Below, piece after piece: positions 535 through 61,438 of a stretch of 64,000 nucleotides of DNA (position 1 is the stretch's first letter; each line of letters begins with the position of its first letter). The notes beneath the pieces are model-generated. The model made no database searches. It saw nothing but the letters and a program-made list of their open reading frames with translations, and was not told where the DNA came from. The position numbers and the translations under genes were made by a program. This stretch comes from Knoellia koreensis (GTDB taxonomy: Bacteria; Actinomycetota; Actinomycetes; Actinomycetales; Dermatophilaceae): positions 62,001 through 126,000 of the forward strand of contig NZ_JABEPQ010000003.1 in the NCBI RefSeq assembly GCF_013041615.1, in the 5' to 3' direction.

Positions 535-878
535 AGCTCTACCTGCCGTCCTGCTCCCATGTGCAGCGGATTCGTCGCTACTCGGACATGGCAACGCCAC
601 AGACGGTAACCCAAGGCGTCAAGTGCGCCGCCATCGGGAGCCGGCCACGCGGCATACCCGTCTTGTCGCCCTGACCGTCCGCCACGGTATGCCGCGCTCT
701 GACGACTTCGTGACCAACGCCGGGGGCGTTGTTCTCCCGGCATTCACCCCCGGCCGGTGACCGCGCCAATGTTCCGAGTCCGTTTCCTCCCCGTTTGCCG
801 GTTGGGCGACACCTCGTGGCCGGCCCGCTCGTAGGTTCCTGACGCGGTTTTCACCTGGTCAGGAGGCGGGAGACGGAC
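535..878. other. Divergent intergenic region topA / ABC exporter
   Basis: These 344 bases lie between the divergent topA and ABC exporter genes and should hold both promoters, but no convincing -35/-10 pair stands out. Two copies of the window-wide word are present, GGCATACC around 651 and GGTATGCC around 687; the first belongs to the longer form CCACGCGGCATA. A strong ribosome-binding site (AGGAGG near 860) precedes the ATG at 879. No open frame here looks like a gene. Confidence 0.6.
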
Positions 879-1904
879 ATGGGACGAAGCACGGCAGTCC
901 GTGCGCGCGCGGTGACCAAGACGTTCGGGGACGTGGTCGCCCTCGATGCCCTCGACCTCGATGTCGAGGCCGGCCAGATCCACGGCCTGGTCGGACCGAA
1001 CGGGGCCGGCAAGACGACGCTGCTCGGGCTGCTGCTCGGCCTCGTCTCGGCGGACTCGGGCAGCCTCGAGGTGCTGGGCACGTCGCTCGACTCCGGCCTG
1101 GCCACGGCCGACGGGGTCGCGGGCTTCGTCGACGGCCCCGGGCTCTATCCCTCGCTCACCGCACGCCAGAACCTGCGCTCGGTGGTCCAGCTGCGCGGGC
1201 AGCGCGACCGACACGGCGACGTCGACGACGCCCTGGCGCGGGTCGGCCTGCAGGAGGTCGCCGACGATCCCGTGCGTGGCTTCTCGCTCGGCATGCGCCA
1301 GCGGCTCGGCCTGGCCGCGGCGCTGTTGAGCGACCCGCGGCTGCTCGTGCTCGACGAACCCGCCAACGGGCTCGACCCGGCCGGCAAGCGCCAGGTCCAC
1401 CGCGTGCTGACCGACCTCGCCGAGGCGGGCACCACGGTCGTGCTGTCCAGCCACCGGATGGACGACCTCGCCGCACTGTGCACCGACGTCACGCTGCTGG
1501 CGACCGGACGCATGGTGTTCTCCGGACCGCCGAGCAAGCTGGCGGTCGAGGGAGGCCTCCTCGACTACCGCCTCCTCACCTCCGACCAGGAGGGCGCCCG
1601 CCGGGTCGCGGAGGCGACGGCCGGCCTGCGGGTGGTCAACGCCCGGGAGACGTTGGGACTGGCCGACCTCCGCTCACTCGTCGTCCGGGGTCACGAGTCG
1701 GCGCTCGACACCCTCATCGTCGGCCTCGTCAACCAGGGCATCGCGATCCGCGAGCTGGCGCCGACCATCCCGCCGCTCGAGGCGGCCTTCCTCGCCCTCA
1801 CCGGTGCGGACACCAGCGACTACTTCCCCGAGGACGACCCCGCCGGCGCCGCCGACGCCACCGGTTCCCCGAGCACCAGGACCCTCGAAGGGGCTGCCCG
1901 ATGA
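879..1904 (+). CDS. ABC-2 type exporter, ATP-binding protein
   Basis: A 341-residue nucleotide-binding protein of the DrrA/CcmA-like class that energises the permease encoded next. Walker A is GPNGAGKTT (about 39-47), the signature is FSLGMRQRLGLA, and Walker B is LLVLDEPANGLDP, followed by a SSH switch motif. After about residue 220 comes a C-terminal extension typical of ABC-2 drug or lipid exporters. The ATG at 879 has AGGAGG about 12 nt upstream. The stop overlaps the permease ATG in an ATGA junction, so the two are translationally coupled. The substrate is unknown; the third operon gene encodes a secreted protein. Confidence 0.93.
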   Translation: MGRSTAVRARAVTKTFGDVVALDALDLDVEAGQIHGLVGPNGAGKTTLLGLLLGLVSADSGSLEVLGTSLDSGLATADGVAGFVDGPGLYPSLTARQNLRSVVQLRGQRDRHGDVDDALARVGLQEVADDPVRGFSLGMRQRLGLAAALLSDPRLLVLDEPANGLDPAGKRQVHRVLTDLAEAGTTVVLSSHRMDDLAALCTDVTLLATGRMVFSGPPSKLAVEGGLLDYRLLTSDQEGARRVAEATAGLRVVNARETLGLADLRSLVVRGHESALDTLIVGLVNQGIAIRELAPTIPPLEAAFLALTGADTSDYFPEDDPAGAADATGSPSTRTLEGAAR

Positions 1905-3274
1905 CGACCACCCTCGACAACCGCACCACCAGCAGCGGGGGCGGCAGTCTCCCGCCCGCGCGGGTGGCCCACGTCACCCTCGCGCAGGTCTACCGGTTCG
2001 AGTTGGTCAAGCTGCTCGCCCAGTGGCGGCTGCGCGCGGTCTTTCTGGCCTGCCTGGTCGCGCCCGCGCTCTACACCGCCGTCGTGAGCAGCCAGACGTC
2101 GCTGCCCGCCGACTTCGTCTTCGGGCGGTGGATGAACCAGACCGGCTGGGCCGGGTCGCTCGTGGTGCTGGTGTTCACCGGCACGCTGGCCCTGCCATTG
2201 GTCACCTGCGTCATCTCCGGGGACATCTTCGCCGTGGAGGACCGGCTCGGCACTTGGCGGCACCTGCTCGTGACGGTGCGCTCGCCGCGGCTCATCTTCG
2301 CCGGCAAGGCGCTGGCGGCCCTGACCGTGACCCTGGCGCTGTTCGTGCCGCTGGTGCTCTCGTCGGTCGCGGGCGGGCTGCTCGTGGTCGGCAGCCACCC
2401 GATGCCCGGGCTCGACGGCCACCTCATCGGCTCCGGCGAGCTGGCCCGGCTCGTCGCACTCTCGTGGGTCAGTGTGGTCCCTCCGACCCTGGCCTTCTCC
2501 GCGATCGGACTGCTCGGCTCGGTCGCCTTCGGCCGCTCACCGCTGGGCCTGCTCATGCCGGTGGCGTTCGCCCTGGTGCTCGAGCTCGTGCACATGCTGC
2601 CGGTCCCCGTCGCGCTGCGTGCGGCCACCCCGACGAGCCCGTTCACGACCTACCGCGGGTTCTTCACCGACCCGCCCCAGCTGGGGATGTTCGGCATCGG
2701 GCTCGTCGTGAGCGCGGCCTGGATCGCGCTCGCGACCTACCTCGCCCAGCGCATGTTCGTCCGGCGCGACTTCACCGACCTCGGTGGTGACGGGTCGAGC
2801 CGGCGGTTCGCCCTCACCGGGCTGCTGCCGCTCGTCGCCCTGCTGGCTGTCACGACGGCCGTCGTGGCCGCGGTCACCGGCGTGACCGGCACGGGTGTCG
2901 ACCGCGCGAAGGTCGAGCGTTCCCTCGCGACGTCCTTCTCCCACCTCTACGTCCTGCAGACGAGGGAGCTGAACCGCCCGGCGGTCACCGAGTCGCAGCT
3001 GAGGACCACGGCCGAGTGCGACAAGGGCGGCAGCCGGGTCGAGGACGTCGGCCCCGGCAACGACTGGCGCTGCGTCGTCACGTGGACCGTGCCCGGAGCC
3101 GACGGTTCCGCCAACGCCATCTACCAGCTCGATGTCCTGCCGGACGGCCGCTACACGGCCGACGGCGACGGACCCAAGGAGGTCAACGGCTACTTCCTGG
3201 TCCGCACCAAGACCGGGGACGCACCCAATCCCCTGTGGCAGTTCGACGGTCTCGTCGACCTGCTCACCCAGTAG
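1901..3274 (+). CDS. ABC-2 type exporter, permease with C-terminal exported domain
   Basis: The 457-residue protein starts at the ATG overlapping the ATPase stop. It has a cytoplasmic N-terminus, six or so hydrophobic segments between about residues 45 and 290, and one more near 300-325. After the last segment comes a polar stretch of roughly 130 residues with a Cys pair (TAECDK, WRCVV), which I place outside the membrane. ABC-2 permeases usually end shortly after their last helix, so this tail is extra and may bind substrate or the secreted protein encoded 63 bp downstream. There is no match I can name for the tail. Confidence 0.88.
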   Translation: MTTTLDNRTTSSGGGSLPPARVAHVTLAQVYRFELVKLLAQWRLRAVFLACLVAPALYTAVVSSQTSLPADFVFGRWMNQTGWAGSLVVLVFTGTLALPLVTCVISGDIFAVEDRLGTWRHLLVTVRSPRLIFAGKALAALTVTLALFVPLVLSSVAGGLLVVGSHPMPGLDGHLIGSGELARLVALSWVSVVPPTLAFSAIGLLGSVAFGRSPLGLLMPVAFALVLELVHMLPVPVALRAATPTSPFTTYRGFFTDPPQLGMFGIGLVVSAAWIALATYLAQRMFVRRDFTDLGGDGSSRRFALTGLLPLVALLAVTTAVVAAVTGVTGTGVDRAKVERSLATSFSHLYVLQTRELNRPAVTESQLRTTAECDKGGSRVEDVGPGNDWRCVVTWTVPGADGSANAIYQLDVLPDGRYTADGDGPKEVNGYFLVRTKTGDAPNPLWQFDGLVDLLTQ

Positions 3275-3337
3275 TACCCGCACGAAGTCGCATCGCCTGA
3301 ACACACAACTGCACAGACAACTCAAGAAGGGGTAACC

Positions 3338-6109
3338 ATGCACGTCACCCGCAACCGCGTGGGCACACCGGTACGCCGCCGGGTCCCACGCCGCACCACC
3401 GCCGTCGTGGCCGGGTCGCTCGCCCTGGTCGTCACCGGCGGCGTCGCCTACGCGAACACCGGCGTCTTCGGGGAGAACCTCGTCGGGACCGAGTACGCCG
3501 ACGGCCTGCAGATCTCCTCGAACCAGATGATCAAGCCCCTCGGTGAGCGCCTCGTCACCGAGTACGGCAAGTTCATGGGTTCCACCGTGAGCCCCGACGG
3601 CCGCTACCTCGCCACCACGGCCAACGACCGCTCCATCTCGCTGCAGATCTTCGACCTGCAGACCTACAAGCTGATCTTCCGCGCCGGGACCGCGGCCGGC
3701 GCCAACCTGCGCCCGACGGACAACACGGTCGGCCAGGAGGGACCGGCATACTCCCCCGACGGCAAGTTCCTCTTCATGCCCAACGCGACCGGCTTCACGC
3801 GCTTCCCGGTCAACGCCGACGGGACGCTGTCGGCCGGCACCAAGGTCACCATCGCGACCCTGCCCTCGCCGAACCGCCAGGCGCTCACCGCGGGCATGGT
3901 CTTCTCCCGCGACGGCAAGACGATGTATGCCGCCGTGAACGGCCAGAACACGGTCGTCGCCATCGACCCGATGACGGGCACGGTCCAGCGCACCTGGGAG
4001 GTGGGCATCGCACCGCGCCAGCTCGAGCTGGTCGGCACCAAGCTGTACGTCTCCGACGAGGGCGGCCGCCGCGCCAGGGCGGGCGAGACGACGATGGAGT
4101 CCTACGGGACCCAGGTCCCGGCGGACCCGGTGCTCGGCAACTCGACGAACGGCATACTCAGCGTCATCGACACCGCGTCGGACGCCGCGCCCGCCACCGT
4201 CGAGGTGGGGCTGCACCCCACCGCGATGTACGTCGACGGCACCGTCCTCTACGTCGCGAACACCAACGACGACACCATCTCCGTCGTCGACACCAGGACG
4301 GACAAGGTCGTGCAGACCATCGAGACGCGCCCCTGGGCGAGCTCGAAGGTCGGCTACGAGCCCACCGGCATGACCGTCAAGGACGGCCGGCTCCTCGTGA
4401 CGCTCGGCCGCGCGAACGCGGTCGCGGTCTACAAGCTGGGCGCCAGCCCGATCGAGCCGGTGAGCTACATCGGGCTCGTACCAACGGATTTCTACCCCGA
4501 GGACGTGTTCGACGTCGACGGCAGGCTGGTGGTCGCCAACCGTCGCGGCATCGACGCCCGCGGGCCGGAGATCACCTACAACATGGGCTATGGCACGACG
4601 CCGGCCAAGGGACATGGCACGCACTCGACGACGGCGTCACTGACGCGGTTCTCGCTGCCGAATGACCTGGAGATCCGGGAGACCTACACGCCACAGGTCT
4701 TCAAGCAGAACGGCTGGGGCGGCGCGGACTCCGACGTCAAGCGTTCCGACGGCGACCGGAACGTGCCGGCGGTGGCGGTGCCGAAGCGCATCGGCGACCC
4801 GTCGACGATCAAGTACGTCTGGTTGCTGGTCAAGGAGAACCGCACCTACGACCAGATCCACGGTGACATGCCGGAGGGCAACGGCGATCCGTCGCTGGCG
4901 CAGTTCGGTGAGCAGGTCACGCCCAACACCCACGCGCTGGCGCGGCAGTTCGGCCTCTACGACAACACCTACGACGTCGGCACCAACTCCGCCGAGGGTC
5001 ACAACTGGCTGATGCAGGGCGACAACCCGGAGTACACCGAGTCCAGTGCGGGCGAGTACGTCCGTTCGTACGACACGGAGAACGACGTGCTGGGACACCA
5101 GCGCTCGGGCTTCCTGTGGACCGCGGTTCAGGCCGCCGGCAACACGGCGCGCAACTTCGGCGAGTTCTCCTACTTCGAGAACAAGCCGGCCGGCGCGACC
5201 TGGCAGAAGTACTACTGCGCGGTGAAGGACGTGTGGGCTGGCGGCGACCCCGCCCAGCTCACCGACCCGTCGCTGCGCGTCAACCAGGTCTCGCCGATCC
5301 CGTCGCTCAACGCGATCAGCAACCACGACGCCCCGATGTTCGACACGAACATCCCGGACATCTACCGGTACGAGATCTGGAAGAAGGAGTTCCAGGAGAA
5401 GGGCCCGGCCAACCTCAACATGATGTGGCTGTCCAGCGACCACACCGGTGGAGCACCCGACCCGCGGGCCCAGGTGGCCGACGGTGACCTCGCGGTCGGC
5501 AAGGTCGTGGAGACGATCAGCAAGAGCAAGTACTGGAAGGAGTCGGCGATCTTCGTGGTCGAGGACGACAGCCAGAACGGGCCCGACCACGTGGACGGCC
5601 ACCGGGCGCCGATCCAGGTGATCAGCCCGTATGCCGTCCACGGCAAGACGGTCTCGACGTACTACTCGCAGATCAGCATGATCCGGACCATCGAGCAGAT
5701 CCTCGGTGCCGAGCCGCTCAACCAGAAGGTGGCTGCTGCGACGCCCATGTTCAAGGCGTTCCAGACCAAGCCCGACCTGACGCCGTACACCGCCAAGCCG
5801 AACCGAATTCCCTTGACGGAGAACCTGAAGACGCAGCCGGCGTGTGGCCCCGACCAGGTGGCGAATGCTCCCGCAGCCCCCACCGTGGCGCCGGCTCAGG
5901 TGTCCGCGGCGGCCGAGTGGGAACAGTGGGCGCAAAAGCAGCACTTCAGCGGCAAGACTCCCCGGGCCGACTTCGCCCACCCGGAGCAGATGAACCGGTA
6001 CACGTGGTACCAGACCCACAACTGGACCGTTCCCTACCCCGGCGACTCGAAGATCTACACCCCGGACCAGGTGCCGGGCGCGGCCCTGCCGGGCAAGGAC
6101 ACCGACTGA
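3338..6109 (+). CDS. Secreted bifunctional YncE-type beta-propeller / phosphoesterase
   Basis: A 923-residue exported protein. The N-terminus has arginines followed by a hydrophobic stretch (about 20-38) ending in VAYANTG, a signal peptide. Residues from about 60 to 440 hold propeller blades of the YVTN/YncE kind (SPDGRYLATT, VLYVANTNDDTISVVDT). From about 490 comes an alkaline-phosphatase-fold phosphoesterase: KENRTYDQIHGD near 499-510 resembles the ENRSFDH motif of the phospholipase C/acid phosphatase family, and DDSQNGPDHVDGHRAP supplies later metal ligands. The domain pairing matches proteins called bifunctional YncE/alkaline phosphatase family. The start follows AGAAGGGG. It is the last gene of the exporter operon; substrate unknown. 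Confidence 0.87.
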   Translation: MHVTRNRVGTPVRRRVPRRTTAVVAGSLALVVTGGVAYANTGVFGENLVGTEYADGLQISSNQMIKPLGERLVTEYGKFMGSTVSPDGRYLATTANDRSISLQIFDLQTYKLIFRAGTAAGANLRPTDNTVGQEGPAYSPDGKFLFMPNATGFTRFPVNADGTLSAGTKVTIATLPSPNRQALTAGMVFSRDGKTMYAAVNGQNTVVAIDPMTGTVQRTWEVGIAPRQLELVGTKLYVSDEGGRRARAGETTMESYGTQVPADPVLGNSTNGILSVIDTASDAAPATVEVGLHPTAMYVDGTVLYVANTNDDTISVVDTRTDKVVQTIETRPWASSKVGYEPTGMTVKDGRLLVTLGRANAVAVYKLGASPIEPVSYIGLVPTDFYPEDVFDVDGRLVVANRRGIDARGPEITYNMGYGTTPAKGHGTHSTTASLTRFSLPNDLEIRETYTPQVFKQNGWGGADSDVKRSDGDRNVPAVAVPKRIGDPSTIKYVWLLVKENRTYDQIHGDMPEGNGDPSLAQFGEQVTPNTHALARQFGLYDNTYDVGTNSAEGHNWLMQGDNPEYTESSAGEYVRSYDTENDVLGHQRSGFLWTAVQAAGNTARNFGEFSYFENKPAGATWQKYYCAVKDVWAGGDPAQLTDPSLRVNQVSPIPSLNAISNHDAPMFDTNIPDIYRYEIWKKEFQEKGPANLNMMWLSSDHTGGAPDPRAQVADGDLAVGKVVETISKSKYWKESAIFVVEDDSQNGPDHVDGHRAPIQVISPYAVHGKTVSTYYSQISMIRTIEQILGAEPLNQKVAAATPMFKAFQTKPDLTPYTAKPNRIPLTENLKTQPACGPDQVANAPAAPTVAPAQVSAAAEWEQWAQKQHFSGKTPRADFAHPEQMNRYTWYQTHNWTVPYPGDSKIYTPDQVPGAALPGKDTD

Positions 6110-6186: not shown

Positions 6187-6225
6187 GTCGCGTGTCTCCC
6201 CGCGGCATACCTCGGCGACATTTTA

Positions 6226-6261: not shown

Positions 6262-7059
6262 ATGGACGCGAGCGATACCCGGCAGCCGGTGCTCTACCTG
6301 AGCCATGGCGCCCCGCCGCTCGCCGACGACCCGGTGTGGACCGCCCAGCTCGCCGACTGGTCGAGCCGGTTCGGCAAGCCCCGCAACATCCTCATGGTGT
6401 CGGCGCACTGGGAGGAGGCGCCGCTGTCGCTGTCGGCCACCTCGGGGGACGTCCCGCTCGTCTACGACTTCTGGGGCTTTCCGCAGCGCTACTACGACGT
6501 GACGTATGCCGCCCCGGGGGCGCCCGAGCTCGCCGCCACGGTCGAGCGGCTGGTCGCCACCGGTGAGACGCCCGTGCATCGCGACGAGACGCGCGGCCTC
6601 GACCACGGTGCCTACGTGCCGCTGGTCGAGATGTACCCCGACGCGGACGTGCCGGTGCTGCAGATGTCGATGCCGACCCTGGACCCGCGGACGCTTTTCG
6701 ACCTCGGCCGACGACTCGCGCCGCTGCGCGATGAAGGCACGCTCATCGTCGGGTCAGGCTTCACGACCCACAACCTGCGGTGGTTCAACCCCTCGGGCGG
6801 CGCGGACGGCGAGCCACCGGCCGCGTCGAGCGAGTTCGACCACTGGGCGGCGGAGGCCCTGGCGCGCGGTGACGTCGACGCGGTCCTCGACTTCGAGCAC
6901 AAGGCGCCGGCCGCGCACGAGGCGCACCCGCGCACCGAGCACTGGGCGCCGCTCTACGTCAGCCTCGGCGCGGCACACGAGTCCGGGTCGCTCGACAACG
7001 AGTCGGTGATCGACGGCTTCTGGTACGGCCTGAGCAAGCGCTCCTGGCAGTTCGCCTGA
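6262..7059 (+). CDS. DODA-type extradiol aromatic ring-opening dioxygenase
   Basis: A 265-residue member of the class III extradiol dioxygenase family that includes plant 4,5-DOPA dioxygenase and E. coli YgiD. Candidate metal and active-site His residues are in SHGAPPL near the start, SAHWEE, LDHGAY and TTHNLRW. I chose the ATG at 6262 over an upstream TTG at 6226 because the TTG falls inside the -35 hexamer and the family starts just before the SHG motif. It is a single-gene unit with its own promoter. The natural substrate of bacterial members is often unknown, so only the family assignment is firm. Confidence 0.85.
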   Translation: MDASDTRQPVLYLSHGAPPLADDPVWTAQLADWSSRFGKPRNILMVSAHWEEAPLSLSATSGDVPLVYDFWGFPQRYYDVTYAAPGAPELAATVERLVATGETPVHRDETRGLDHGAYVPLVEMYPDADVPVLQMSMPTLDPRTLFDLGRRLAPLRDEGTLIVGSGFTTHNLRWFNPSGGADGEPPAASSEFDHWAAEALARGDVDAVLDFEHKAPAAHEAHPRTEHWAPLYVSLGAAHESGSLDNESVIDGFWYGLSKRSWQFA

Positions 7060-9288: not shown

Positions 9289-9400
9289 CGGCGGCTCCTC
9301 GGTCGGGGCGGGCGCGCACTTCGTGCACCCCAAGCCAACCTAGGACGTATGCCGCGTTTCAGCACCCGGACGTCTCGGCGGTCGGTGCCGGCACACGATC

Positions 9401-9437
9401 GGTATGCCGCGTGGCCAGCTCGGCCACGCGGCATACC
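9401..9437. terminator. Perfect 16-bp hairpin made from the repeated word
   Basis: GGTATGCCGCGTGGCC (9401-9416) and its exact reverse complement (9422-9437) flank the 5-nt loop AGCTC. It sits 12 bp past the stop of the ABC exporter gene ending at 9450, so it probably terminates that operon. Both arms are copies of the word that recurs through the window. Confidence 0.75.
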
Positions 9438-9449: not shown

Positions 9450-11501
9450 TCAGCTCCCGGCGGTCGCCATCTCGGGCACCGGCGCCTCACCGGTGTCGAC
9501 ATCGACCGCCGCACCGCGGAACTGCGCCTGGTAGAGCTCGGCGTAGGCACCGCCCCGGGCCAGCAGCTCCTCGTGCGACCCCTGCTCGACGATCGAGCCG
9601 TCACGCATCACGAGGATGACGTCGGCGTCGCGGATCGTTGACAGCCGGTGCGCGATGACGAAGCTCGTGCGGTCCTGCCGCAGCGCCGACATCGCCTGCT
9701 GCACCAGCAGCTCGGTGCGCGTGTCGACCGACGAGGTGGCCTCGTCGAGGATGAGCAGCGCGGGGTCGGACAGGAACGCCCGGGCGATGGTGATGAGCTG
9801 CTTCTCGCCCGCGCTGATGTTGCCACCCTCGGCGTCCAGCTTGGTGTCGTAACCGTCGGGCAGGGAGTGCACGAACCGGTCGACATAGGTGGCCTGCGCC
9901 GCCTCGAGGACCTGCTCGTCCGTCGCGTCCGGGTTGCCGTAGGCGATGTTCTCGCGGATCGTCCCGCCGAACAGCCACGTGTCCTGCAGGACCATTCCGA
10001 TCTCGCTGCGCAGGTCGTGTCGGCTCAGGTCGGTGATGTCGACCCCGTCGAGGGTGATGCGGCCGCCGTTCAGCTCGTAGAACCGCATGATGAGGTTGAC
10101 CAGGGTGGTCTTGCCCGCCCCGGTGGGCCCGACGATGGCGACGGTCTGGCCCGGCTCGACGGTGAGGTCGAGGTGCTCGATCAGTGGCTTGTCCGGGCTG
10201 TAGGAGAACGACACGTCCTCGAACTCGACGCGGCCGTGCGGATCCTCCAGGCGCACCGGGCTGGCGGCCTCAGGCTCCTGCTCGGGCGCGTCGAGCACCT
10301 CGAACACCCGCTCCGCGGAGGCAACACCGGACTGCAACAGGTTGGCCATCGACGCCACCTGGGTGAGCGGCTGGGTGAACTGACGCGAGTACTGGATGAA
10401 CGCCTGCACGTCACCGAGGCTCATCGAGCCGTTCGCCACCCGGAGACCACCGACGACGGCCACGATGACGTAGTTGAGGTTTCCGATGAACATCATCGTC
10501 GGCATGATGATGCCGCTGATGAACTGGGCGCCGAAGCCGGCCGAGAAGAGGTCGTCGTTCTTCGCCTTGAATGCGGCCCGCGACTCCTGCTGACGACCGA
10601 ACACCTTGACCAGCTGATGACCCGTGAACGTCTCCTCGACGATCGAGTTGAGCTCACCGGTGCTCTTCCACTGCTGGATGAAGTGCTTCTGCGACCGCTT
10701 GCCGATGGCGGCGGTGACGAACATCGTCACCGGGATCGTGACCAGCGCGATGAGCGCCAGCAGCGGCGAGATGTAGATCATCATCGCCACCATCGCCACC
10801 ACCGTGAGCAGCGAGTTGAGCATCTGGCTCAGGGTCTGCTGCATGCTCTGGGCGACGTTGTCGATGTCGTTGGTGACACGGGAGAGCAGCTCGCCGCGCG
10901 GCTGGTTGTCGAAGTACGGCAACGGCAGGCGGTTGAGCTTGTCCTCGACGTCGCGACGCAGGGTGAAGATGGTGCGGTTGACGGCGCCGGTGAGGATCCA
11001 TCCCATCGCCCACGACAGCAGGCTCGCCACGACGTAGATGGCGAGCACCCACAACAGCACCTGGCTCACCGCGCCGAAGTCGATGCCCTGGCCGGGCACC
11101 AGGTGGTCCATCTTCGCCACCATGTCGGCGAGCTGGTCCTGCCCGCGCGCCCGCAGGCCCTGAGCCAGCTGCTCGGCCGTGGTGCCTGCAGGCACCTGCC
11201 CACCGACGCTCTTGCCGATCACGCCGGCGAAGATCAGGTCGGTCGCCCGGCCGAGGATCTTCGGCCCGACGGCGTTGAGGGCCACGCTCGCCACGGCGAG
11301 CGCCAGCACGGCATACAGCTGGGTGCGCTCGGGGCGCAGCAGGCCGAGCAGTCGCTTCGCGGACGGCACGAAGTTCTGCGACTTCTCGGCCGGCACGCCC
11401 ACCCCGGCCATCGGGCCGTGCCGCTGCCCCGCCCGGGAGCCGGGCCCGCGGCGCGCCTCGGCGGCCTTCTCCTCCTCGGTCTTCACACCTTCGGCGCTCA
11501 T
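9450..11501 (-). CDS. Heterodimeric ABC exporter, subunit B
   Basis: A 683-residue half-transporter: a polar N-terminal 55 residues, six transmembrane helices, then an ATPase domain. Walker A is GPTGAGKTT (about 455), Walker B is LLILDEATSS with the catalytic Glu intact (about 579), but the signature reads NISAGEKQL instead of LSGGQ-type. The partner has the opposite pattern, as in heterodimers with one consensus and one degenerate ATP site such as TM287/288. The ATG at 11501 overlaps the partner's stop (ATGA) and is chosen over an in-frame codon at 11558 inside the partner gene. Probable multidrug or lipid exporter, under the adjacent TetR. Confidence 0.92.
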   Translation of the reverse strand: MSAEGVKTEEEKAAEARRGPGSRAGQRHGPMAGVGVPAEKSQNFVPSAKRLLGLLRPERTQLYAVLALAVASVALNAVGPKILGRATDLIFAGVIGKSVGGQVPAGTTAEQLAQGLRARGQDQLADMVAKMDHLVPGQGIDFGAVSQVLLWVLAIYVVASLLSWAMGWILTGAVNRTIFTLRRDVEDKLNRLPLPYFDNQPRGELLSRVTNDIDNVAQSMQQTLSQMLNSLLTVVAMVAMMIYISPLLALIALVTIPVTMFVTAAIGKRSQKHFIQQWKSTGELNSIVEETFTGHQLVKVFGRQQESRAAFKAKNDDLFSAGFGAQFISGIIMPTMMFIGNLNYVIVAVVGGLRVANGSMSLGDVQAFIQYSRQFTQPLTQVASMANLLQSGVASAERVFEVLDAPEQEPEAASPVRLEDPHGRVEFEDVSFSYSPDKPLIEHLDLTVEPGQTVAIVGPTGAGKTTLVNLIMRFYELNGGRITLDGVDITDLSRHDLRSEIGMVLQDTWLFGGTIRENIAYGNPDATDEQVLEAAQATYVDRFVHSLPDGYDTKLDAEGGNISAGEKQLITIARAFLSDPALLILDEATSSVDTRTELLVQQAMSALRQDRTSFVIAHRLSTIRDADVILVMRDGSIVEQGSHEELLARGGAYAELYQAQFRGAAVDVDTGEAPVPEMATAGS

Positions 11502-13879: not shown

Positions 13880-14009
13880 ACGGGTTTTCGACGTGCGCAA
13901 ATGCGCCCCGAGATGACATCCGTCCTGCCCGTCACTCACTCGCCGCCTGCCCGGGAGCGCGCCCACAGCGGGGTATGCCGCCGGCGGCCGAGCGCGCGCG
14001 GGTGGACTC

Positions 14010-16308: not shown

Positions 16309-16341
16309 TGGGTATGCCGCGTGGTTGCGCGGGCGGTCGGC

Positions 16342-23666: not shown

Positions 23667-23857
23667 CCCGCGGTGCCGAGCGCCGTGGTGATGATCGACG
23701 CGAGCGCCGACTTCACCCCACCGGACCGGACCACGGCGAGCAGCACCGCGGCGAACGCGCACGCCGCGAGCGTGCCCACGGCATACTCCGCAGTCGTCAT
23801 GCCCCGCTCGCAGCCGTGCCTCACGCCGCGCGTAAACCGTCGCATCGTCTTGACCAT
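23663..23857 (-). CDS. DUF4244 Flp-type pilin
   Basis: A 64-residue small pilin. The basic leader (MVKTMRRFTRGVRHGCERG) precedes MTTAEYAVGTLAACAFAAVLL, a class IVb-like cleavage and assembly motif with the Glu and Tyr of Flp pilins. It is the likely major pilin of the Tad system in the window. The ATG at 23857 has GGAGGTGACGGC upstream. It is the first gene of the second Tad unit; DnaA-box-like elements lie 84-123 bp upstream. Confidence 0.85.
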   Translation of the reverse strand: MVKTMRRFTRGVRHGCERGMTTAEYAVGTLAACAFAAVLLAVVRSGGVKSALASIITTALGTAG

Positions 23858-35062: not shown

Positions 35063-35261
35063 GGACGAGCTCGGCCGTTCGGCGCGGCACAGCGACCGCT
35101 CGGCGCACCGACGGTCACCACCCGCCGAGCGGCGCCGCCGTACGGCGCGCACCCGCGCGGCATACCTGCCCCTGCGGCCCACCACGCACGACAGTGACTG
35201 GCGGCAGCGGGTCCACCCGCCGCCTGCTTGGCCCGTCCCCTCATCCCCGGAGGTGCCCGAC

Positions 35262-37306: not shown

Positions 37307-37428
37307 TGTGTCGTCTCCGGGCCGTTCAGGCCCCCAGGTCTGCCGCCTTCGGCGACTCGTCGGTATGCCGTCGTGTCAACCCAGGTGCCCAGCCTCGCGT
37401 CAACGTGGTGTCCGGGAAGGAGGACACC

Positions 37429-39047: not shown

Positions 39048-40982
<1,935 letters not shown>

Positions 40983-47952: not shown

Positions 47953-51863
<3,911 letters not shown>

Positions 51864-52056: not shown

Positions 52057-52896
52057 TCAGACGAGCTGCCGCGACAGCACGGCGTGCCGGTTGACGTCCT
52101 TGTAGAGCAGGTAGCGGAACCGGCCCGGTCCGCCGGCGTAGCAGGCCTGCGGGCAGAACGCGCGCAGCCACATGAAGTCACCTTCCTGCACCTCGACCCA
52201 GTCGTTGTTGAGCAGGTAGACCGCCTTGCCCTCCAGGACGTAGAGGCCGTGCTCCATCACGTGGGTCTCAGGGAACGGGATCGCCCCGCCGGGCTCAAAG
52301 TTGACGATGTTGACGTGCATGTCGTGCCGCACGTCGGTGGGGTCGACGAACCGCTGCGTCGTCCACGCCCCCTTGGTGCCGGGCATCTCGATCCCGGGGA
52401 CGTCGGACTCGTGGGTGACCAGCGGCTCGGGCAGGTCGATGCCGTCGACCCGTTGGTAGGACTTGCGGATCCAGTGGAACGACGCCGGTTCGCCGCCGCG
52501 GTTGTGCAGTTTCCAGCGCTGCCCGCAGGGCAGGTAGGCGTAGCTGCCGGCGGTCAGCTGGTGCACCTCGCCGTCGAGGTCGAGCTCGAGGCTGCCGCCG
52601 ACGACGAACAGAACGCCCTCGGCCAGCTGGTCGATCTCCGGCTTGTCGGATCCGCCACCCGGTGTCACCTGGACGATGTACTGCGAGAAGGTCTCCGCGA
52701 AGCCCGACAGTGGCCGGGCGATGACCCACATCCGCATGCCCTCCCAGAACGGCAGGGCGCTCGTGACGATGTCGGTCATGGTGCCGCGCGGCAGGACGGC
52801 ATACGCCTCGGTGAAGGTCGCCCGGTCGGTGGTCAGCTGCGTCTGCGGAGGCAGTCCACCCTTGGGGGCGTAGTAGCGGGTCTCGTTGTCGCTCAT
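52057..52896 (-). CDS. allE: (S)-ureidoglycine aminohydrolase
   Basis: A 279-residue bicupin enzyme. Two cupin modules are seen; the second contains the metal-binding ETHVMEHGLYVLEGKAVY, ending with CYAGGPGRFRYLLYKDVNRH, the typical AllE C-terminus. It converts ureidoglycine to ureidoglycolate and ammonia. Its substrate comes from allantoate amidohydrolase, which is not in the window. The ATG overlaps the allB stop (ATGA). Confidence 0.93.
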   Translation of the reverse strand: MSDNETRYYAPKGGLPPQTQLTTDRATFTEAYAVLPRGTMTDIVTSALPFWEGMRMWVIARPLSGFAETFSQYIVQVTPGGGSDKPEIDQLAEGVLFVVGGSLELDLDGEVHQLTAGSYAYLPCGQRWKLHNRGGEPASFHWIRKSYQRVDGIDLPEPLVTHESDVPGIEMPGTKGAWTTQRFVDPTDVRHDMHVNIVNFEPGGAIPFPETHVMEHGLYVLEGKAVYLLNNDWVEVQEGDFMWLRAFCPQACYAGGPGRFRYLLYKDVNRHAVLSRQLV

Positions 52897-54230
52897 GGGT
52901 TTCCTCTCCTGATGAGCTGCCCCCGCGGGGCCGCCTCGAGGTCGACGGGTATGCCGTGGAGCCAGGTCTGGCGGACGACTCCGGTCAGCGTTCGGCCGGC
53001 ATAGGCCGACACGGGGTTCTTGTGGCGCAGGTGGGCGACGTCGACGGTGAACTCCTCGTCCGGAGCCAGCACGGCGAGGTCGGCCTGCGCACCGACCTCG
53101 ATGCGCCCGCGGTCGGAGAGCCCGACCTGGTCGGCGGTGTTGGTCGCCATCCAGCGCACGACGTCGGCGAGCGTCAGCCCGCGTGAACGAGCCTCGGTCC
53201 ACACGGCCGGCAGGCCGAGCTGCACACCTGCGATGCCGCCCCACGCGAGCCCGAACTCGCCCACGTCCAGCCGCTTGAGGTCCTCGGTGCAGGGGCTGTG
53301 GTCGGTGACGATGGTGCCGATCGTCCCGTCCCGCAACGCATCCCAGAGGTGGTCGCGGTTGTCGGCCTCGCGGATCGGCGGGCAGCACTTGAACTGGGTC
53401 GCCCCGTCGGGGATCTCCTCGGCCGTGATCGTGAGGTAGTGCGGGCACGTCTCGGCCGTGACCCGGAGTCCCTCGGCCTGTGCCTTGGCGACCAGCGGCG
53501 CGGCGTCGGCGTCGGACAGGTGCAGGATGTGCGCCCGGCCCCCAGTCTCGCGGACTGCGTCGACGACGGCAGTGATCGCCACCTCCTCGGCCGCGCGCGG
53601 TCGCGAACCCAGGTACGCGGCATACGAACGCCCCTCCGGTTCCGGGGCGGAGTCGATGGCCTCGGCATCCTCGGCGTGGACGATGACCAGGGCGTCGAAC
53701 TTCGTTGTCTCAGTGAGTGCTTCGCGCAGCTCGTCAGCCGTGAGCGGGGGGAACTCGTCGACCCCGGAGTGGATCAGGAAGCACTTGAACCCGAAGACGC
53801 CCGCGTCGTGCAGCGGCTGCAGGTCGAGGACGTTGCCGGGCACCGCGCCACCCCAGAAGCCCACGTCGACGAACGCCTGGTCGCGGGCGATGGCGCGCTT
53901 CTCCTCAAGCGCCGCCACGGAAACCGTGGCAGGGATCGAGTTGAGCGGCATGTCGATGATCGTGGTCACGCCGCCAGCTGCCGCAGCACGGGTCGCGCTG
54001 GCGAAGCCCTCCCACTCGGTGCGACCGGGCTCGTTGACGTGGACGTGCGTGTCGACGAGCCCGGGCAGCAGCACCTCGTCGTCGGCCAGCTCGACCACCC
54101 GGGTGTCACCAGTGGGCGCGTCGTAGGTCTCGATGGCGGCGATGCGACCGTCGGCGACGAAGACCGTCGCCGCGACCTCCTCACCGTCCACGACTGCGCG
54201 CCGCGCGCGCAGCACGACGTCAGCGTCCAC
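52893..54230 (-). CDS. allB: Allantoinase
   Basis: A 445-residue cyclic amidohydrolase opening allantoin to allantoate. Zinc ligands: VDTHVHVNEPGR, the carboxylated Lys in GFKCFLIHSG, HILHLSD and TDHSPCTEDLK. TTIIDMPLNSIPATVS is diagnostic of AllB. The start is the GTG at 54230 with GGAGG upstream; it overlaps the glxK 3' end by 11 nt. The HGIP near the C-terminus uses the rare ATA codon within the repeated word. Confidence 0.95.
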   Translation of the reverse strand: MDADVVLRARRAVVDGEEVAATVFVADGRIAAIETYDAPTGDTRVVELADDEVLLPGLVDTHVHVNEPGRTEWEGFASATRAAAAGGVTTIIDMPLNSIPATVSVAALEEKRAIARDQAFVDVGFWGGAVPGNVLDLQPLHDAGVFGFKCFLIHSGVDEFPPLTADELREALTETTKFDALVIVHAEDAEAIDSAPEPEGRSYAAYLGSRPRAAEEVAITAVVDAVRETGGRAHILHLSDADAAPLVAKAQAEGLRVTAETCPHYLTITAEEIPDGATQFKCCPPIREADNRDHLWDALRDGTIGTIVTDHSPCTEDLKRLDVGEFGLAWGGIAGVQLGLPAVWTEARSRGLTLADVVRWMATNTADQVGLSDRGRIEVGAQADLAVLAPDEEFTVDVAHLRHKNPVSAYAGRTLTGVVRQTWLHGIPVDLEAAPRGQLIRRGNP

Positions 54231-55395
54231 GTGCCACCTCCACTTCGACGCGACCGGTCGCCGGTGCGTCCAGGACCTCACGGTACTCGCGCGCGATGCG
54301 CGCGCCGATGCGTTCGAGGAGAGGCCCCGGGGCGGTGAACGCCTCGTCCCGGCTACCCGCCTCGTCGATGAGTCCGTATGCCGCGTCGAAGCCGGCCTCG
54401 CGCAGCGTCGCCTCGTCGAGGGCGACCCGACCGGCCACGGCCACGACCGGGATGCTGTGTCGGGCAGCCAGGGCAGCCACGGCCGCTGGGGCCTTGCCGT
54501 GCAAGGTCTGCGCGTCGAGCGACCCCTCACCGGTGACCACGAGGTCGGCCGCGGCGACGGCCTCGGGGAGCCCGGACAGCTCGCCGACGAGCTCCGCGCC
54601 CGGGCGCATCGTGGCGCCCAGCACGGCGAGCAGTGCAAAGCCGACACCGCCAGCGGCGCCCGCGCCAGGCGTGTCGCGCAGGTCGCGCCCGGTGGCTTCG
54701 GCCACGACGTCGGCCCAGGCGGAGAGCCCGATGTCGAGCGCCTCCACCTCGTCGGGGCCAGCGCCCTTCTGCGGGCCGTAGACCGCCGCTGCACCAGTCG
54801 GCCCGGTCAGCGGGTTGTCGACGTCGCTGGCCACGACGAGCTCGGCATCGGCCAGGCGGGGGTGGAGCTCGGCGAGGTCGAGCCCGACGATGTCGACGAG
54901 GGAGCCGCCGCCGTCGCGCAGGGCCCTCCCGCGCCGCCCGCTCACGCGGGCCCCCAGTGCCCGCAGCAGTCCGACACCGCCGTCGGTGCTCGCACTGCCG
55001 CCGATTCCCACGACGATGCGCCGGCAGCCCGCGTCGAGAGCCGCCGCAATGAGGTCACCCGTGCCGCGGCTGGTGGCGCCCAACGGATCCGGCCGCCCGT
55101 CGGGCAACCTCGACAGACCGCTCACCTCCGCCAGCTCGACCACCGCCTCGGTGCCACGGCGCGCGAAACTGGCCGTGAGCGGCATACCCGTGGGTCCCGC
55201 CGCACGGACCGCCACCAGGTCGAAGCCGGCGGCCTCGGCCGCCGCCAGCGTGCCGTCGCCGCCATCGGCGACGGGCACGGTGGCGACCTCGACCTTGGTC
55301 AGCACCGACCGCAGCCCGACCTCCAGGTGCGCCGCCACCTCGGCGGCGGTCAGCGTGCCCTTGAACTTGTCGGGGGCGAGCAGCACACGGGGCAT
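54220..55395 (-). CDS. glxK: Glycerate kinase, GlxK family
   Basis: A 391-residue type I glycerate kinase. It begins with the family motif LLAPDKFKGTLTAAEVA; VADGGDGT, GGSASTDGGVGLLRALG and VTGEGSLDAQTLHGK are the binding-loop signatures. It makes phosphoglycerate from the glycerate produced by GlxR. The ATG at 55395 lies 11 bp after gcl. Confidence 0.94.
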   Translation of the reverse strand: MPRVLLAPDKFKGTLTAAEVAAHLEVGLRSVLTKVEVATVPVADGGDGTLAAAEAAGFDLVAVRAAGPTGMPLTASFARRGTEAVVELAEVSGLSRLPDGRPDPLGATSRGTGDLIAAALDAGCRRIVVGIGGSASTDGGVGLLRALGARVSGRRGRALRDGGGSLVDIVGLDLAELHPRLADAELVVASDVDNPLTGPTGAAAVYGPQKGAGPDEVEALDIGLSAWADVVAEATGRDLRDTPGAGAAGGVGFALLAVLGATMRPGAELVGELSGLPEAVAAADLVVTGEGSLDAQTLHGKAPAAVAALAARHSIPVVAVAGRVALDEATLREAGFDAAYGLIDEAGSRDEAFTAPGPLLERIGARIAREYREVLDAPATGRVEVEVARGR

Positions 55396-57268: not shown

Positions 57269-57289
57269 GTTGTGGGTATGCCGCGTGGC

Positions 57290-58256: not shown

Positions 58257-58285
58257 CCGCAAACAAGCCGGGGGCTGGGGTGACG

Positions 58286-59095
58286 TCAGGCGTGGAGCCA
58301 GCCGAGGCTCTCGGGGGTGGTCGCGGTGGTGGGCTTGTACTCCAGGCCGACCCACCCGGCATACCCGCGGGCCGCGAGGTCGGCGAGGTGCCGGTCGAGG
58401 TCGAGCGAGCCGCTGCCGGGCTCGCCGCGGCCGGGCGCGTCCGCGATCTGCACGTGCGCCACGCGGTCGACGTATGCCGCGATGGCGGCGTCGATGTCGT
58501 CGCCGTTGTTCGCGAGGTGGAAGAGGTCGAGGAGGAACCCGACATTCGCGTTCCCCGTGGCGCGGACGTCGTCGACCACGGCGACCGAGTCGGCGGCGGT
58601 GCGCAACGGGTAGGGCTTGGGCCCGCTGACCGACTCGACCAGCACCGTGGCACCGATGCGGTCGGCAGCCTTGGCCGCGGCCGCGATCGACTCGCGGCCG
58701 AGCTCGTCCTGTTCCTGCGGGCTGGCGTCGTCGACACGGTTGCCGAACAGGGCGTTGAACCCACTCACGCCGAGCCGCTCGCCGATGCCGACGGTGACGT
58801 CGATGTTGTCGCGGAACTCCTGCACCCGTGCGGGGATCGAGAGGACCCCGCAGTCCGGACCGGCCAGGTCGCCGGCGAAGAAGTTGAGACCGACGAGCTG
58901 CACCCCGGCGTCCTGCACAGCGCCGACGAAGGCGTCGACGTCGCGGTCACCCGGGACCGGCTGGTCCGGCCAGGGCCACCAGAACTCGACGGCATCGAAG
59001 CCGGCCGCCTTCGCGGCGGCGGGGCGCTCGAGCAGGGGCAGCTCGGTGAACAGGATCGAGCAGTTGGCCTCGTACCGCAGTCCGTGGTCGCTCAT
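58286..59095 (-). CDS. hyi: Hydroxypyruvate isomerase
   Basis: A 269-residue TIM-barrel protein of the Hyi family, interconverting hydroxypyruvate and tartronate semialdehyde. YEANCSILFTELPLLERPAAAKAAGFDAVEFWWPWP is spread over the N-terminus (positions about 8-42); Glu and metal ligands lie in VLVESVSG, FLLDLFHLANNG, HVQIADAPGRGEPGSG and GLEYKP. The ATG at 59095 has AAGGAG eight bases upstream; an IclR-type palindrome lies just before. First gene of hyi-glxR-gcl-glxK-allB-allE. Confidence 0.92.
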   Translation of the reverse strand: MSDHGLRYEANCSILFTELPLLERPAAAKAAGFDAVEFWWPWPDQPVPGDRDVDAFVGAVQDAGVQLVGLNFFAGDLAGPDCGVLSIPARVQEFRDNIDVTVGIGERLGVSGFNALFGNRVDDASPQEQDELGRESIAAAAKAADRIGATVLVESVSGPKPYPLRTAADSVAVVDDVRATGNANVGFLLDLFHLANNGDDIDAAIAAYVDRVAHVQIADAPGRGEPGSGSLDLDRHLADLAARGYAGWVGLEYKPTTATTPESLGWLHA

Positions 59096-59197: not shown

Positions 59198-60604
59198 TCA
59201 GTGGGTGGCGGCGATATATCTGCCGCGGCCGGCCCGCTCGAGCAGCGCGCTCGACGCGGTCATCGCCGCGCGGGCCAGCTCGGCCTCGTCGCGCGTCACG
59301 AGGCGGTCGCCCTCGACCACCGGGCGACCGGCGACGAGCAGCAGCTCCAGCGGGGGCCGGTCACCGAGCACCAGCCCGGCCACCGGGTCGGCGAGCCCGG
59401 CGTGCGCCAGCGTGTCCATGCGCCAGACGGCGATGTCGGCCTGCTTGCCGGGCTCCAGCGACCCGATCTGGTCGTCCCAGCCCAGCACCCGAGCGCCGCC
59501 GATCGTGGCAAGCGCCAACGCATCCCGCACACCCATCGCCGTCGGGCCGCCCTTCGCGCGCGCGAAGAGGAGTGCGTGCCGAGCCTCCTCGATGAGTGAG
59601 GTCGCCTCGTTGGAGGCGGCGCCGTCAACCCCGAGACCCACCGGCACGCCGGCGTCCACGAGGTCACGGGTGCCGCAGATCCCGGCGCCCAGCCGGGCGT
59701 TCGACGACGGGCAGTGGGCGACGCCGGTGCCCGTCGCACCGAGCACCGCGAGCGAGGCGTCGTCGAAGTGGATGCCGTGGGCAAACCACACATCCGGCCC
59801 TACCCAGCCCACCGACTCCATGAACTCGACCGGCGTCATGCCGAGCCGCTCACGGCAGTCATCGAGCTCGTCGACCGTCTCGGCCAGGTGGGTGTGCAGC
59901 CGAACTCCCTTGTCCCGAGCCAGGATCGCCGCATGCTCGAGCAGGTCGCGGGTGACCGAGAAGGGGGAGCACGGGGCGACACCGATGCGCAGCATCGAGT
60001 CGTCCGACGCGTCGTGGTGGGTGTCGATGGCCTCGGCCGTGGCTACAAGGATGGCGTCGAGGTGCTCGACGACGTGGTCCGGCGGCAGGCCGCCGGAACT
60101 CTGTCCCAGGTCCATCGACCCACGGGTGGCGAGGAACCGCAGCCCCACTCCCCCGACCGCGTCGATCTCCGCACCGAGCACGTCACCGCCGTCGGCGGGA
60201 AAGACGTAGTGGTGGTCCATCAGCGTGGTGCACCCGGTGCGCGCCAGCCACCCCGCACCAGCCGCGGCCGCAGCGCCGACGACGTCCTCGTCGATGCCGC
60301 CCCAGACCGGGTACAGCTCGGTCAGCCAACCGAAAAGCGTTGCGTCGACTGCGAGTCCGCGCGTCGCCCACTGGTAGAGGTGGTGGTGCGTGTTGACCAG
60401 GCCGGGCGTCGCGACGCAACCGGTGGCGTCGACGATGCGAGCCTCCCCGCGGTCGCCCGACGCGGCTGACGCGGCATACCGACCCTCGCCGACCGAGGCG
60501 ATGCGTCCGCCCTCGACGACGACGTGTCCGACCGCGTGCTCGGTGCGCGCCGGGTCCATCGTGACGACGGTGCAGCCGTCGAGCACGAGCCGTTCGGCGG
60601 GCAC
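59198..60604 (-). CDS. 8-oxoguanine deaminase-type amidohydrolase
   Basis: A 468-residue amidohydrolase. Metal ligands: VNTHHHLYQWATRG, HTHLAETVDE, AHGIHFDD and GVDGAASNE. The THHHLYQ motif and CTTLMDHHYVFP match the 8-oxoguanine deaminase/hydroxydechloroatrazine group, which removes damaged or modified guanine by conversion to urate or similar. Its place in a urate operon fits 8-oxoguanine to urate. Substrate preference is an inference. GTG start one base after the uraH stop. Confidence 0.85.
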   Translation of the reverse strand: MPAERLVLDGCTVVTMDPARTEHAVGHVVVEGGRIASVGEGRYAASAASGDRGEARIVDATGCVATPGLVNTHHHLYQWATRGLAVDATLFGWLTELYPVWGGIDEDVVGAAAAAGAGWLARTGCTTLMDHHYVFPADGGDVLGAEIDAVGGVGLRFLATRGSMDLGQSSGGLPPDHVVEHLDAILVATAEAIDTHHDASDDSMLRIGVAPCSPFSVTRDLLEHAAILARDKGVRLHTHLAETVDELDDCRERLGMTPVEFMESVGWVGPDVWFAHGIHFDDASLAVLGATGTGVAHCPSSNARLGAGICGTRDLVDAGVPVGLGVDGAASNEATSLIEEARHALLFARAKGGPTAMGVRDALALATIGGARVLGWDDQIGSLEPGKQADIAVWRMDTLAHAGLADPVAGLVLGDRPPLELLLVAGRPVVEGDRLVTRDEAELARAAMTASSALLERAGRGRYIAATH

Positions 60605-60605
60605 G

Positions 60606-60932
60606 TCAGCTCCCGCGGTAGGTCGAGTAGCCGTACGGGTTGAGCAGCACCGGCACGTGGTAGTGCTCCTCGCCGTCGCTGACCGTGAAGACGATGACCA
60701 CCTCCGGGTAGAAACCGTCCACCCCCGACGCCTCGAAGTAAGCGCCCGAGGCGAACCGCAGCCGGTAGTCGCCGGGGCTCAGCCGGGACGGACCGATCGA
60801 CCCGACGCGACCGTCGGCATCGGTGACTCCGGAACCAATGCCTTCTCCTGCAACGGTTTCCAGCGTGACCTCGATGCCCTGCGCCGGGCGACCGACGGAG
60901 GTGTCGAGGACGTGGGTGCTGAGCGTGCTCAT
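60606..60932 (-). CDS. uraH: 5-hydroxyisourate hydrolase
   Basis: A 108-residue transthyretin-like enzyme. THVLDTSVGRPAQGIEV at the start supplies the His, and the end YHVPVLLNPYGYSTYRGS holds the diagnostic YRGS. It hydrolyses 5-hydroxyisourate to OHCU. The ATG overlaps the uraD stop (ATGA). Confidence 0.97.
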   Translation of the reverse strand: MSTLSTHVLDTSVGRPAQGIEVTLETVAGEGIGSGVTDADGRVGSIGPSRLSPGDYRLRFASGAYFEASGVDGFYPEVVIVFTVSDGEEHYHVPVLLNPYGYSTYRGS

Positions 60933-61438
60933 CGAACCGGCTCCTTCTCCCCCGCCAGGTCGCGCAGCCGCAGCAGCGCGATCTCGCGCAGCTGCGTCAC
61001 GGTCTCCTCGCGTTCGGTCGTGTCGTCGTTGCCGAGCCGCCGCCGGAGCTCGGCCAGGATCTCCGGCGCCGTCCGACCGGCCGCCCGGATGATGAACACC
61101 CGGTCGAACCTTTCCTCGTATGCCGCGTTGCCGGCGGCCAGTGCACGCGTCACCTCCGCGTCGCGCGGGTCCACGCCGGCCTGCTCCCGAGCACTCGCGG
61201 CGGCGTTGTGCCCCGCGCCCGCCCGCTCGCCGATCCGCGGGTGACCCGCGAGCGCGGCGACGAGCTCGTCGTCGGTGAGCTGTGCCGCCGCGGCAGCCGC
61301 CGCGGCCTCGAGAGCCGGCCACGCGGCATACGGGCGCCCGTCGCTCACCTCGGCCACCCACCGAGGCACGGGCAGGCACTCTGCGAGCGCCCGCTCGGCC
61401 TCGGCAGGAGGCAAGGCGTTGAAGGACTCGAGGCTCAC
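60929..61438 (-). CDS. uraD: OHCU decarboxylase
   Basis: A 169-residue enzyme converting OHCU to (S)-allantoin. The catalytic His and Glu are retained in AGHPRIGERAG and SAREQAGV. The N-terminus (FNALPPAEAERAL, CLPVPRWVAEVSDGRPY) and the segment AAYEERFDRVFIIRAAGR follow the family. GTG start overlaps the permease stop. A second, altered copy of the domain is fused to that permease. Confidence 0.93.
   Translation of the reverse strand: MSLESFNALPPAEAERALAECLPVPRWVAEVSDGRPYAAWPALEAAAAAAAAQLTDDELVAALAGHPRIGERAGAGHNAAASAREQAGVDPRDAEVTRALAAGNAAYEERFDRVFIIRAAGRTAPEILAELRRRLGNDDTTEREETVTQLREIALLRLRDLAGEKEPVR

Follow-up and report, generated by a model that had tools for sequence, protein, structure and literature searches.

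GTATGCCG, a strand-alternating octamer abundant in Knoellia koreensis and its family, as a possible uptake-sequence-like word

Abundance and exactness of the word

The octamer GTATGCCG, which is not a palindrome, is by a wide margin the most over-represented 8-mer of the actinobacterium Knoellia koreensis (family Dermatophilaceae), and successive copies tend to switch strands. It was studied in a stretch of 64,000 nucleotides, hereafter the window (RefSeq assembly GCF_013041615.1, contig NZ_JABEPQ010000003.1, positions 62,001 to 126,000 of the forward strand), in the rest of the genome and in other actinobacteria. With a confidence slightly short of even, we favour reading GTATGCCG as the local dialect of a directional recognition word that resembles DNA uptake sequences (DUS) and has the family form GTAYGNCG. 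In 376,743 bases of the genome, 300 copies were counted where an order-2 Markov model fitted to the same sample predicts 8.3; the enrichment is about 36-fold and the density about one copy per 1.07 kb. Across all 15 contigs (4.28 Mb) the genome contains 1,983 forward and 2,003 reverse copies, 3,986 in total, compared with 54 + 60 = 114 copies of the reversed control word.

An initial annotation of the window had described the shorter word GTATGC/GCATAC, with about 68 copies counted by eye, as an apparent replacement of GTACGC. A recount gave exactly 33 GTATGC and 35 GCATAC, as well as 8 GTACGC and 5 GCGTAC, 13 in place of "about a dozen", and the site coordinates proved correct within a few bases. 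The enrichment is therefore real, but its unit is longer: GTATGCCG accounts for 65 of the 68 copies, and the only others, starting at 6249, 18384 and 27010 (GTATGCTC, GTATGCGG and GTATGCGC), are not followed by CG. A weak extension is visible 3' of the core, with C or T at position 9 and G at position 10; part of it we tentatively attribute to codon positions and to paired sites between genes. A search of Rfam returned no match at the gathering thresholds.

The replacement itself was not borne out, as GTACGCCG, the one-base variant with C at position 4, occurs at its expected frequency (29 vs 28.6). When all 24 one-mismatch neighbours of GTATGCCG, among them GTACGCCG and GTATGGCG, were counted, observed and expected numbers ranged from 0/3.5 to 48/34.7. 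The largest deficit, that of GTCTGCCG (19 vs 33.5), compares with a GTATGCCG surplus of about 292 copies, and the neighbours together show no excess of near-matches (261 vs 286 expected, in a slightly larger set of own-genome sequence). T prevails over C at position 4 only where the whole octamer surrounds it. Over 344 kb of the genome, in five blocks, T:C comes to 324:26 for GTAYGCCG and 6:33 for CTAYGCCG; it is 4:31 where the base after GTAYGCC is not G, and 19:50 where the base after GTAYGC is not C. The comparable word does not share the ratio, and CTACGC is kept in the window as first described (20 CTACGC/GCGTAG vs one CTATGC/GCATAG).

Distribution and dialects in the family

The word is confined in strength to the family of the window. 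Among 58 genomes including its own, 36 of which belong to the family, all enriched ones are family members, and the highest count in the 22 genomes from the order's other families is 167 (184 copies of the control in that genome). In a set of 246 genomes from the phylum, three family members stand out with at least 1,251 copies each; outside the family no count exceeds 386 (control 176), reached in a genome of 7.5 Mb, and the best ratio there, among genomes with more than 200 copies, is 238 vs 95. Loci of Cellulomonas, Isoptericola, Promicromonospora, Actinotalea and Aeromicrobium led to eight genomes, with 9–79 copies each. Within the family, 149 genomes divide into 82 that are GTATGCCG-rich (404–4,724 copies), 13 intermediate and 54 poor, as compiled by hand from per-genome counts. 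The two strands are balanced in the 82 rich genomes, where the standard deviation of the forward–reverse z is 0.77.

Dialects of the word vary at positions 4 and 6, even within the genus of the window and within genus g26. At position 6, the number of GTATGDCG copies per GTATGCCG is below 0.15 in 45 of the rich genomes, at least 0.3 in 30 and in between in seven; these 30 relaxed genomes are set by the ratio alone, uncorrected for background. The ratio is highest (2.3) in genus g49, and the relaxed status of G119 is doubtful, as it has 1,155 GTATGDCG vs 959 copies of the reversed control. An excess of near-matches is found in some genomes other than that of the window, mostly at position 6.

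At position 4, related genera are enriched for GTACGNCG. Since these sister genera use it as their own enriched word, the T/C difference at position 4 distinguishes dialects of lineages and is not an exchange within one genome. By-eye tallies place GTACGRCG at 1,000 copies or more, with the control no more than half as frequent, in 11 of the 149 genomes (G010, G033, G071, G079, G085, G100, G107, G111, G131, G134 and G136), of which G010 alone is also GTATGCCG-rich. In G071, GTACGCCG itself is the top 8-mer (43/5.5), and a 20-kb sample of G085 contains four GTACGACG, five GTACGCCG and no GTACGGCG. G100 is GTATGCCG-poor but GTACGDCG-rich, and two of its genus mates have 1,062 and 3,681 copies of GTATGCCG. 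Altogether, 92 of the 149 family genomes are strong in one dialect or the other. G010, a member of the window's genus, has 625 GTATGCCG, 246 GTATGDCG and 1,338 GTACGRCG (reversed control 537) and looks to be in transition between dialects.

Samples of 20–60 kb were drawn from the GTATGCCG-poor genomes, leaving out G012, G018 and G023 (0.3–5.7 kb). No 8-mer with a z of 10 or more was found in eight of the 12 samples, compared with a z of 20 in 40 kb of the window's genome. Two word-poor genomes are enriched for other words, the palindrome GGACGTCC in G020 (L029–L030; 24/2.2) and CGTACGCC in G034 (L036–L037; 26/3.5), which are possibly similar to the highly iterated palindromes (HIP) or further dialects. 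In a 40-kb sample of G033 (L034–L035), repeated words that overlap one another, CAGTTCGACG and TCGACGGTCA among them, predominate, as if these came from a longer repeat.

Strand alternation and close pairs

Own-genome strand tests covered the same five blocks, leaving out C2–C7, C9:1-20000 and C9:30001-42000. Neighbouring sites share a strand in 92 of 319 pairs; none of 20,000 permutations of the strand labels gave so low a number, and the share is the lowest among 23 non-palindromic 8-mers with 200–500 copies (median 0.52). Below 1 kb, same-strand pairs number 86 vs 153 expected and opposite-strand pairs 188 vs 153. Because same-strand sites are avoided within about 1 kb, we infer that the word is read on a single strand or in a single direction, further copies over that distance bringing ever smaller gains.

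The same tendency was found in relatives. In nine congeners, 53 of 168 adjacent pairs are on the same strand. For 17 strict-word genome samples, four of them from congeners, the count is 190 of 489 (z −4.9); by subtraction, the samples without those four give 157 of 366 (z about −2.7). Single samples with the opposite trend are G013 (18/30 same-strand) and G010 (10/11, GTATGCCG only). The grouping into strict and relaxed samples was made by hand, with G159, G083 and G035 placed among the strict ones despite GTATGDCG/GTATGCCG ratios of 0.31, 0.21 and 0.16, and with G002 grouped although it has no GTATGDCG count; one set of pooled tests left out G100 and G152. In 11 relaxed-word samples, the effect is weak for GTATGCCG only (98/221, z −1.7) and clear when GTATGNCG is counted (158/400, z −4.2), which suggests that other letters at position 6 act as sites in these genomes. 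Mixed pairs are on the same strand in 69 of 164 cases and pairs of the other position-6 letters in 36 of 93. For the GTACG dialect (GTACGRCG and GTACGDCG; the repeat-rich G033 left out), the same-strand counts are 54/129 (z −1.8) and 67/163 (z −2.3), a weaker effect that is not clearly strand-specific, as opposite-strand pairs below 1 kb also fall short of expectation; G111 has 20/33 in these samples.

Very close sites tend to face each other. Of the 23 adjacent pairs within 80 bp in the genome of the window, 20 are on opposite strands. Convergent pairs below 100 bp occur there 19 times vs 7.7 expected, 20 vs 9.0 in the strict samples and 19 vs 10.9 in the relaxed ones, 1.7–2.5 times expectation overall.

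Sites in the window, in genes and in mobile DNA

The following GTATGCCG sites were identified in the window (+, forward strand; −, reverse strand):
687..694, +, site
3925..3932, +, site
5629..5636, +, site
6504..6511, +, site
9347..9354, +, site
9402..9409, +, site, arm of a hairpin
13973..13980, +, site
15435..15442, +, site
16312..16319, +, site
19621..19628, +, site
20211..20218, +, site
28287..28294, +, site
29725..29732, +, site, kept in 7/7 aligned relatives
30396..30403, +, site
34079..34086, +, site
37363..37370, +, site
39350..39357, +, site
41097..41104, +, site
41277..41284, +, site
42985..42992, +, site
44873..44880, +, site, in 0/9 aligned relatives
45647..45654, +, site
46297..46304, +, site, in 0/9 aligned relatives
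49120..49127, +, site
50200..50207, +, site, in 0/9 aligned relatives
50478..50485, +, site
52949..52956, +, site
54376..54383, +, site
57276..57283, +, site within a short repeated stretch
58472..58479, +, site
61118..61125, +, site
650..657, −, site, close inverted partner of 687
3744..3751, −, site
4150..4157, −, site
6203..6210, −, site
9429..9436, −, site, arm of a hairpin
11309..11316, −, site
14495..14502, −, site
14558..14565, −, site
14921..14928, −, site
15167..15174, −, site
18054..18061, −, site
20469..20476, −, site
23779..23786, −, site
24602..24609, −, site
25300..25307, −, site
27320..27327, −, site
29094..29101, −, site
32935..32942, −, site
35158..35165, −, site
37796..37803, −, site
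39253..39260, −, site
39766..39773, −, site in an acetyl-CoA-synthetase-like gene, in 0/8 aligned relatives
42696..42703, −, site
43556..43563, −, site
44657..44664, −, site in a malate synthase gene
46556..46563, −, site, kept in 9/9 aligned relatives
49656..49663, −, site, kept in 8/9 relatives
51308..51315, −, site
52797..52804, −, site
53618..53625, −, site
55180..55187, −, site
58357..58364, −, site, kept in 8/9 relatives
60472..60479, −, site
61324..61331, −, site, kept in 8/9 relatives
9401..9437, no strand, hairpin from two inverted sites, perfect 16-bp stem and 5-base loop

Four stretches were folded. The one around this hairpin (9390-9450) reaches −39.6 kcal/mol (z −4.85; none of 200 shuffles equally good), the inverted pair 650/687 (640-706) folds weakly (z −1.34), and two stretches without a site pair gave z values of 0.64 and −0.47.

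Gene calls were made by a GC-frame heuristic, which missed comEA. On these calls, 242 sites fall within genes and 89 between them, at densities of 0.78 and 1.08 per kb, respectively; exactly half of the coding sites (121) are sense and half (121) antisense to transcription. Tyr-Ala and Ala-Tyr frames hold 180 of the 242, all six frames are used and sites also occur between genes, so that the initial annotation was right to place the signal at the DNA level; of its interpretation this part stands, with the sites behaving like a recognised word, while the C-to-T conversion of GTACGC does not. An artefact of codon or word use is ruled out by the T:C context counts, by comparison with 22 other common 8-mers and by the use of all six frames. 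The sites showed no preference for a replication strand: over 186 of them in 200 kb, the running skew remained between −3 and +4 (stretches of 200 kb and 84 kb, with the origin and terminus positions not mapped), and a replication- or transcription-oriented signal is ruled out by this lack of polarity.

Four stretches of about 52 kb contain one site in all. Two of them carry mobile-element genes and share that one site over about 30 kb: contig C3 (9.6 kb), with a ParB_N protein and an integrase, and C9:1-20000, with kdp genes, a Mutator transposase and an ArdC-like protein. Contig C2 (12.5 kb) has no mobile marker among four searched proteins, all metabolic enzymes, and C1:130-140 kb, which includes a serine recombinase, was picked out for its emptiness and is not independent evidence. 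Uptake sequences are reportedly used against mobile elements.

Between congeners the sites are better kept than other words. In alignments with nine of them (79–83% aligned identity), the window's word is identical at 126 of 278 aligned sites (12 gapped sites left out), compared with 20–29% for all 8-mers; conversely, 126 of the congeners' 148 aligned sites are also sites in the window (28 unaligned and one gapped left out). Among the 152 non-conserved sites, 51 have four or more differences, an excess that is uncorrected for the A/T-rich core, and single differences show no single-substitution signature, position 4 T/C making up 6 of 44. Sites missing in every aligned congener occur within well conserved genes. 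One of these is 39766, whose translated frame reads E-H-T-A-Y-P-H in the window and Q-H-E-A-V-A-H in G005; because of this difference, a gained site can, to judge from the translations, alter amino acids.

Several other features of the window were noted. At about 57221-57300 and 58206-58294, pieces of about 50–90 bases match dozens of places in the genome on both strands, like a dispersed repeat, and the first of these stretches holds a GTATGCCG site. Two genes of purine breakdown encode a molybdopterin-binding, xanthine-dehydrogenase-like subunit (47953-50565) and a permease that carries a fused OHCU decarboxylase domain (61435-63393). Two sodium:solute symporter genes lie near each other at 32814-37243.

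Candidate machinery

A ComEC domain was found in 145 of the 149 family genomes, including that of the window, and a ComEA-like motif adjoins comEC in 29 of 30 loci from rich and poor genomes, again including its own. T2SSF genes are present in 146 genomes and in at least two copies in every rich one; G016, G116 and G121, which have none, are all poor. Rich genomes also have slightly more T2SSF copies (Mann-Whitney p 0.03, kinship ignored); both differences are too slight to build on. The genome of the window has a Flp/Tad-like locus, with genes named from the look of their sequences and their order; the main genes occur in rich and poor genomes alike, and a comparison at this one locus revealed no discriminating gene. 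The presence of ComEC, ComEA or T2SSF is rejected as the determinant, and so is a PilM-type pilus, as PilM_2 was found in five of the 149 genomes. RecC is commoner in poor genomes (29/54) than in rich ones (25/82; Fisher p 0.008, kinship ignored). RecC of the window's genome lies at C10:305703-306716 and none was found in the eight other congeners screened, so that RecBCD is patchy within the genus. Competence genes are available, but none of the screened genes explains which genomes have the word.

Possible role of the word

An uptake-like role is suggested by several features that resemble those of DUS: how densely the sites lie, how evenly they divide between the strands, their convergent pairs and their dialects. 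Sister genera without the word and mobile DNA with little of it fit the same pattern. Like DUS of Neisseriaceae and uptake signal sequences (USS) of Pasteurellaceae, GTATGCCG is short, non-palindromic, present about once per kb on both strands about equally and located within and between genes; both systems have a surplus of close convergent pairs, single-base dialects and some genomes of the family without the word. The features for comparison come from PMC1852404, PMC1939737, PMC2346458 and PMC3630211; single-base DUS dialects are known (PMC3630211), and pairs of uptake sequences favour the +− arrangement of a hairpin (PMC1852404). The actinobacterium Micrococcus luteus transforms by means of ComEA/ComEC homologues and Flp pili (PMC6370729). 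Another paper on transformation in M. luteus (PMC8467076) contains none of five terms on uptake specificity for which it was searched. Under the proposed mechanism, the apparatus of natural transformation (ComEA/ComEC together with a Flp/Tad pilus) would include a putative receptor that prefers DNA bearing the word. DNA of kin would then be taken up and recombined more often, leading to an accumulation of copies throughout the genome; one strand would enter from the site in one direction, and a second site nearby in the same orientation would add little. Both the uptake receptor as the reader and the one-way entry of a strand as the meaning of the strand effect are inferred.

Several observations weigh against this proposal or set the word apart from DUS and USS. 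The word occurs in high-GC actinobacteria, its family nearly lacks PilM, and its own genome shows no near-match excess, unlike H. influenzae and N. gonorrhoeae, where mismatched forms are over-represented (PMC1939737). The same source describes uptake in H. influenzae as independent of site orientation. Avoidance of same-strand neighbours below about 1 kb was therefore not predicted and is a further difference from DUS and USS; it would suit a directional reader, perhaps a Chi-like one. The avoidance loses strength beyond the genus, and the nine congeners show no +− preference among their close pairs (five convergent, five divergent). No ComP-like receptor candidate was found at the one Tad-like locus compared, and the presence of ComEC, ComEA and T2SSF in most word-poor genomes leaves the distribution unexplained. 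Three of the four genomes without a ComEC match (G061, G064 and G065) are word-rich; as their assemblies are incomplete or fragmented (58, 81 and 95% complete, 330–760 contigs), they do not change our assessment.

The main rival, which we consider fairly unlikely, is a Chi-like signal read on one strand during resection by a directional helicase-nuclease, AdnAB or similar, and leading to recombination. One site per strand every 1–2 kb would suffice for such an enzyme, hence the avoidance on the same strand, and the strand-specific spacing, the conservation between congeners, the scarcity in mobile DNA and the exactness of the word all fit. Chi shares with GTATGCCG the 8-bp scale, the lack of a palindrome, directional spacing, conservation and scarcity in mobile DNA. 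However, known Chi sites are strongly biased to one replication strand, and GTATGCCG is denser and has no skew in 200 kb. RecC is the Chi-reading subunit of RecBCD, and its occurrence does not follow the word, which all eight RecC-less congeners carry; RecBCD-Chi itself is thereby ruled out. The lack of any strong 8-mer in most of the GTATGCCG-poor samples also speaks against a Chi-like role.

Somewhat less probable is another directional chromosomal signal, recognised by a strand-specific nucleoid, replication-restart or segregation factor. Strand alternation would agree with it, and so would the finding that none of the four gene families screened clearly goes with the word, but the sites show neither strand skew along 200 kb nor transcription polarity, and no candidate protein emerged.

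We regard as improbable a process in which an orphan DNA methyltransferase and methylation-dependent repair make and keep the word, in the manner of a HIP1-like word; HIP1 is known from cyanobacteria. HIP1 is likewise a very abundant octamer, and HIP words are comparably abundant, lineage-specific and replaced by alternates in sister lineages (PMC4390886). HIP1 is, however, palindromic and tied to methyltransferases, whereas GTATGCCG is not a palindrome and its one-off neighbours lack an overall excess in its own genome; same-strand avoidance would not be expected from local repair.

A Vsr-like repair or deamination bias converting GTACGC to GTATGC is hardly credible: the T excess in the full context counts for it, but it is already contradicted by the precursor GTACGCCG at expectation, and the few T/C differences among congeners, the near absence of the word from mobile-gene stretches of the same genome and the enrichment of GTACGNCG itself in sister genera argue against it as well.

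No description of GTATGCCG or of an actinobacterial uptake sequence was found among the matches listed from the open-licence part of PubMed Central, subscription papers and preprints being outside the scope of this search. In the literature covered, abundant uptake words are reported from two families of Gram-negative bacteria, and the logic of their strand arrangement is not well understood. The word may be a code of DNA self-recognition in a Gram-positive family, with dialects within genera and with each strand carrying its own regularly spaced sites for one-strand, one-way uptake or processing, a broader picture in which we place somewhat less confidence than in an even chance. An actinobacterial word of such strength, with sharp dialects and alternating strands, would allow specificity, receptor co-evolution and directionality to be tested. 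Should it turn out to be Chi-like instead, it would be, to our knowledge, the first such signal for end resection in actinobacteria. Transformation experiments in these bacteria also gain a simple design rule to try.

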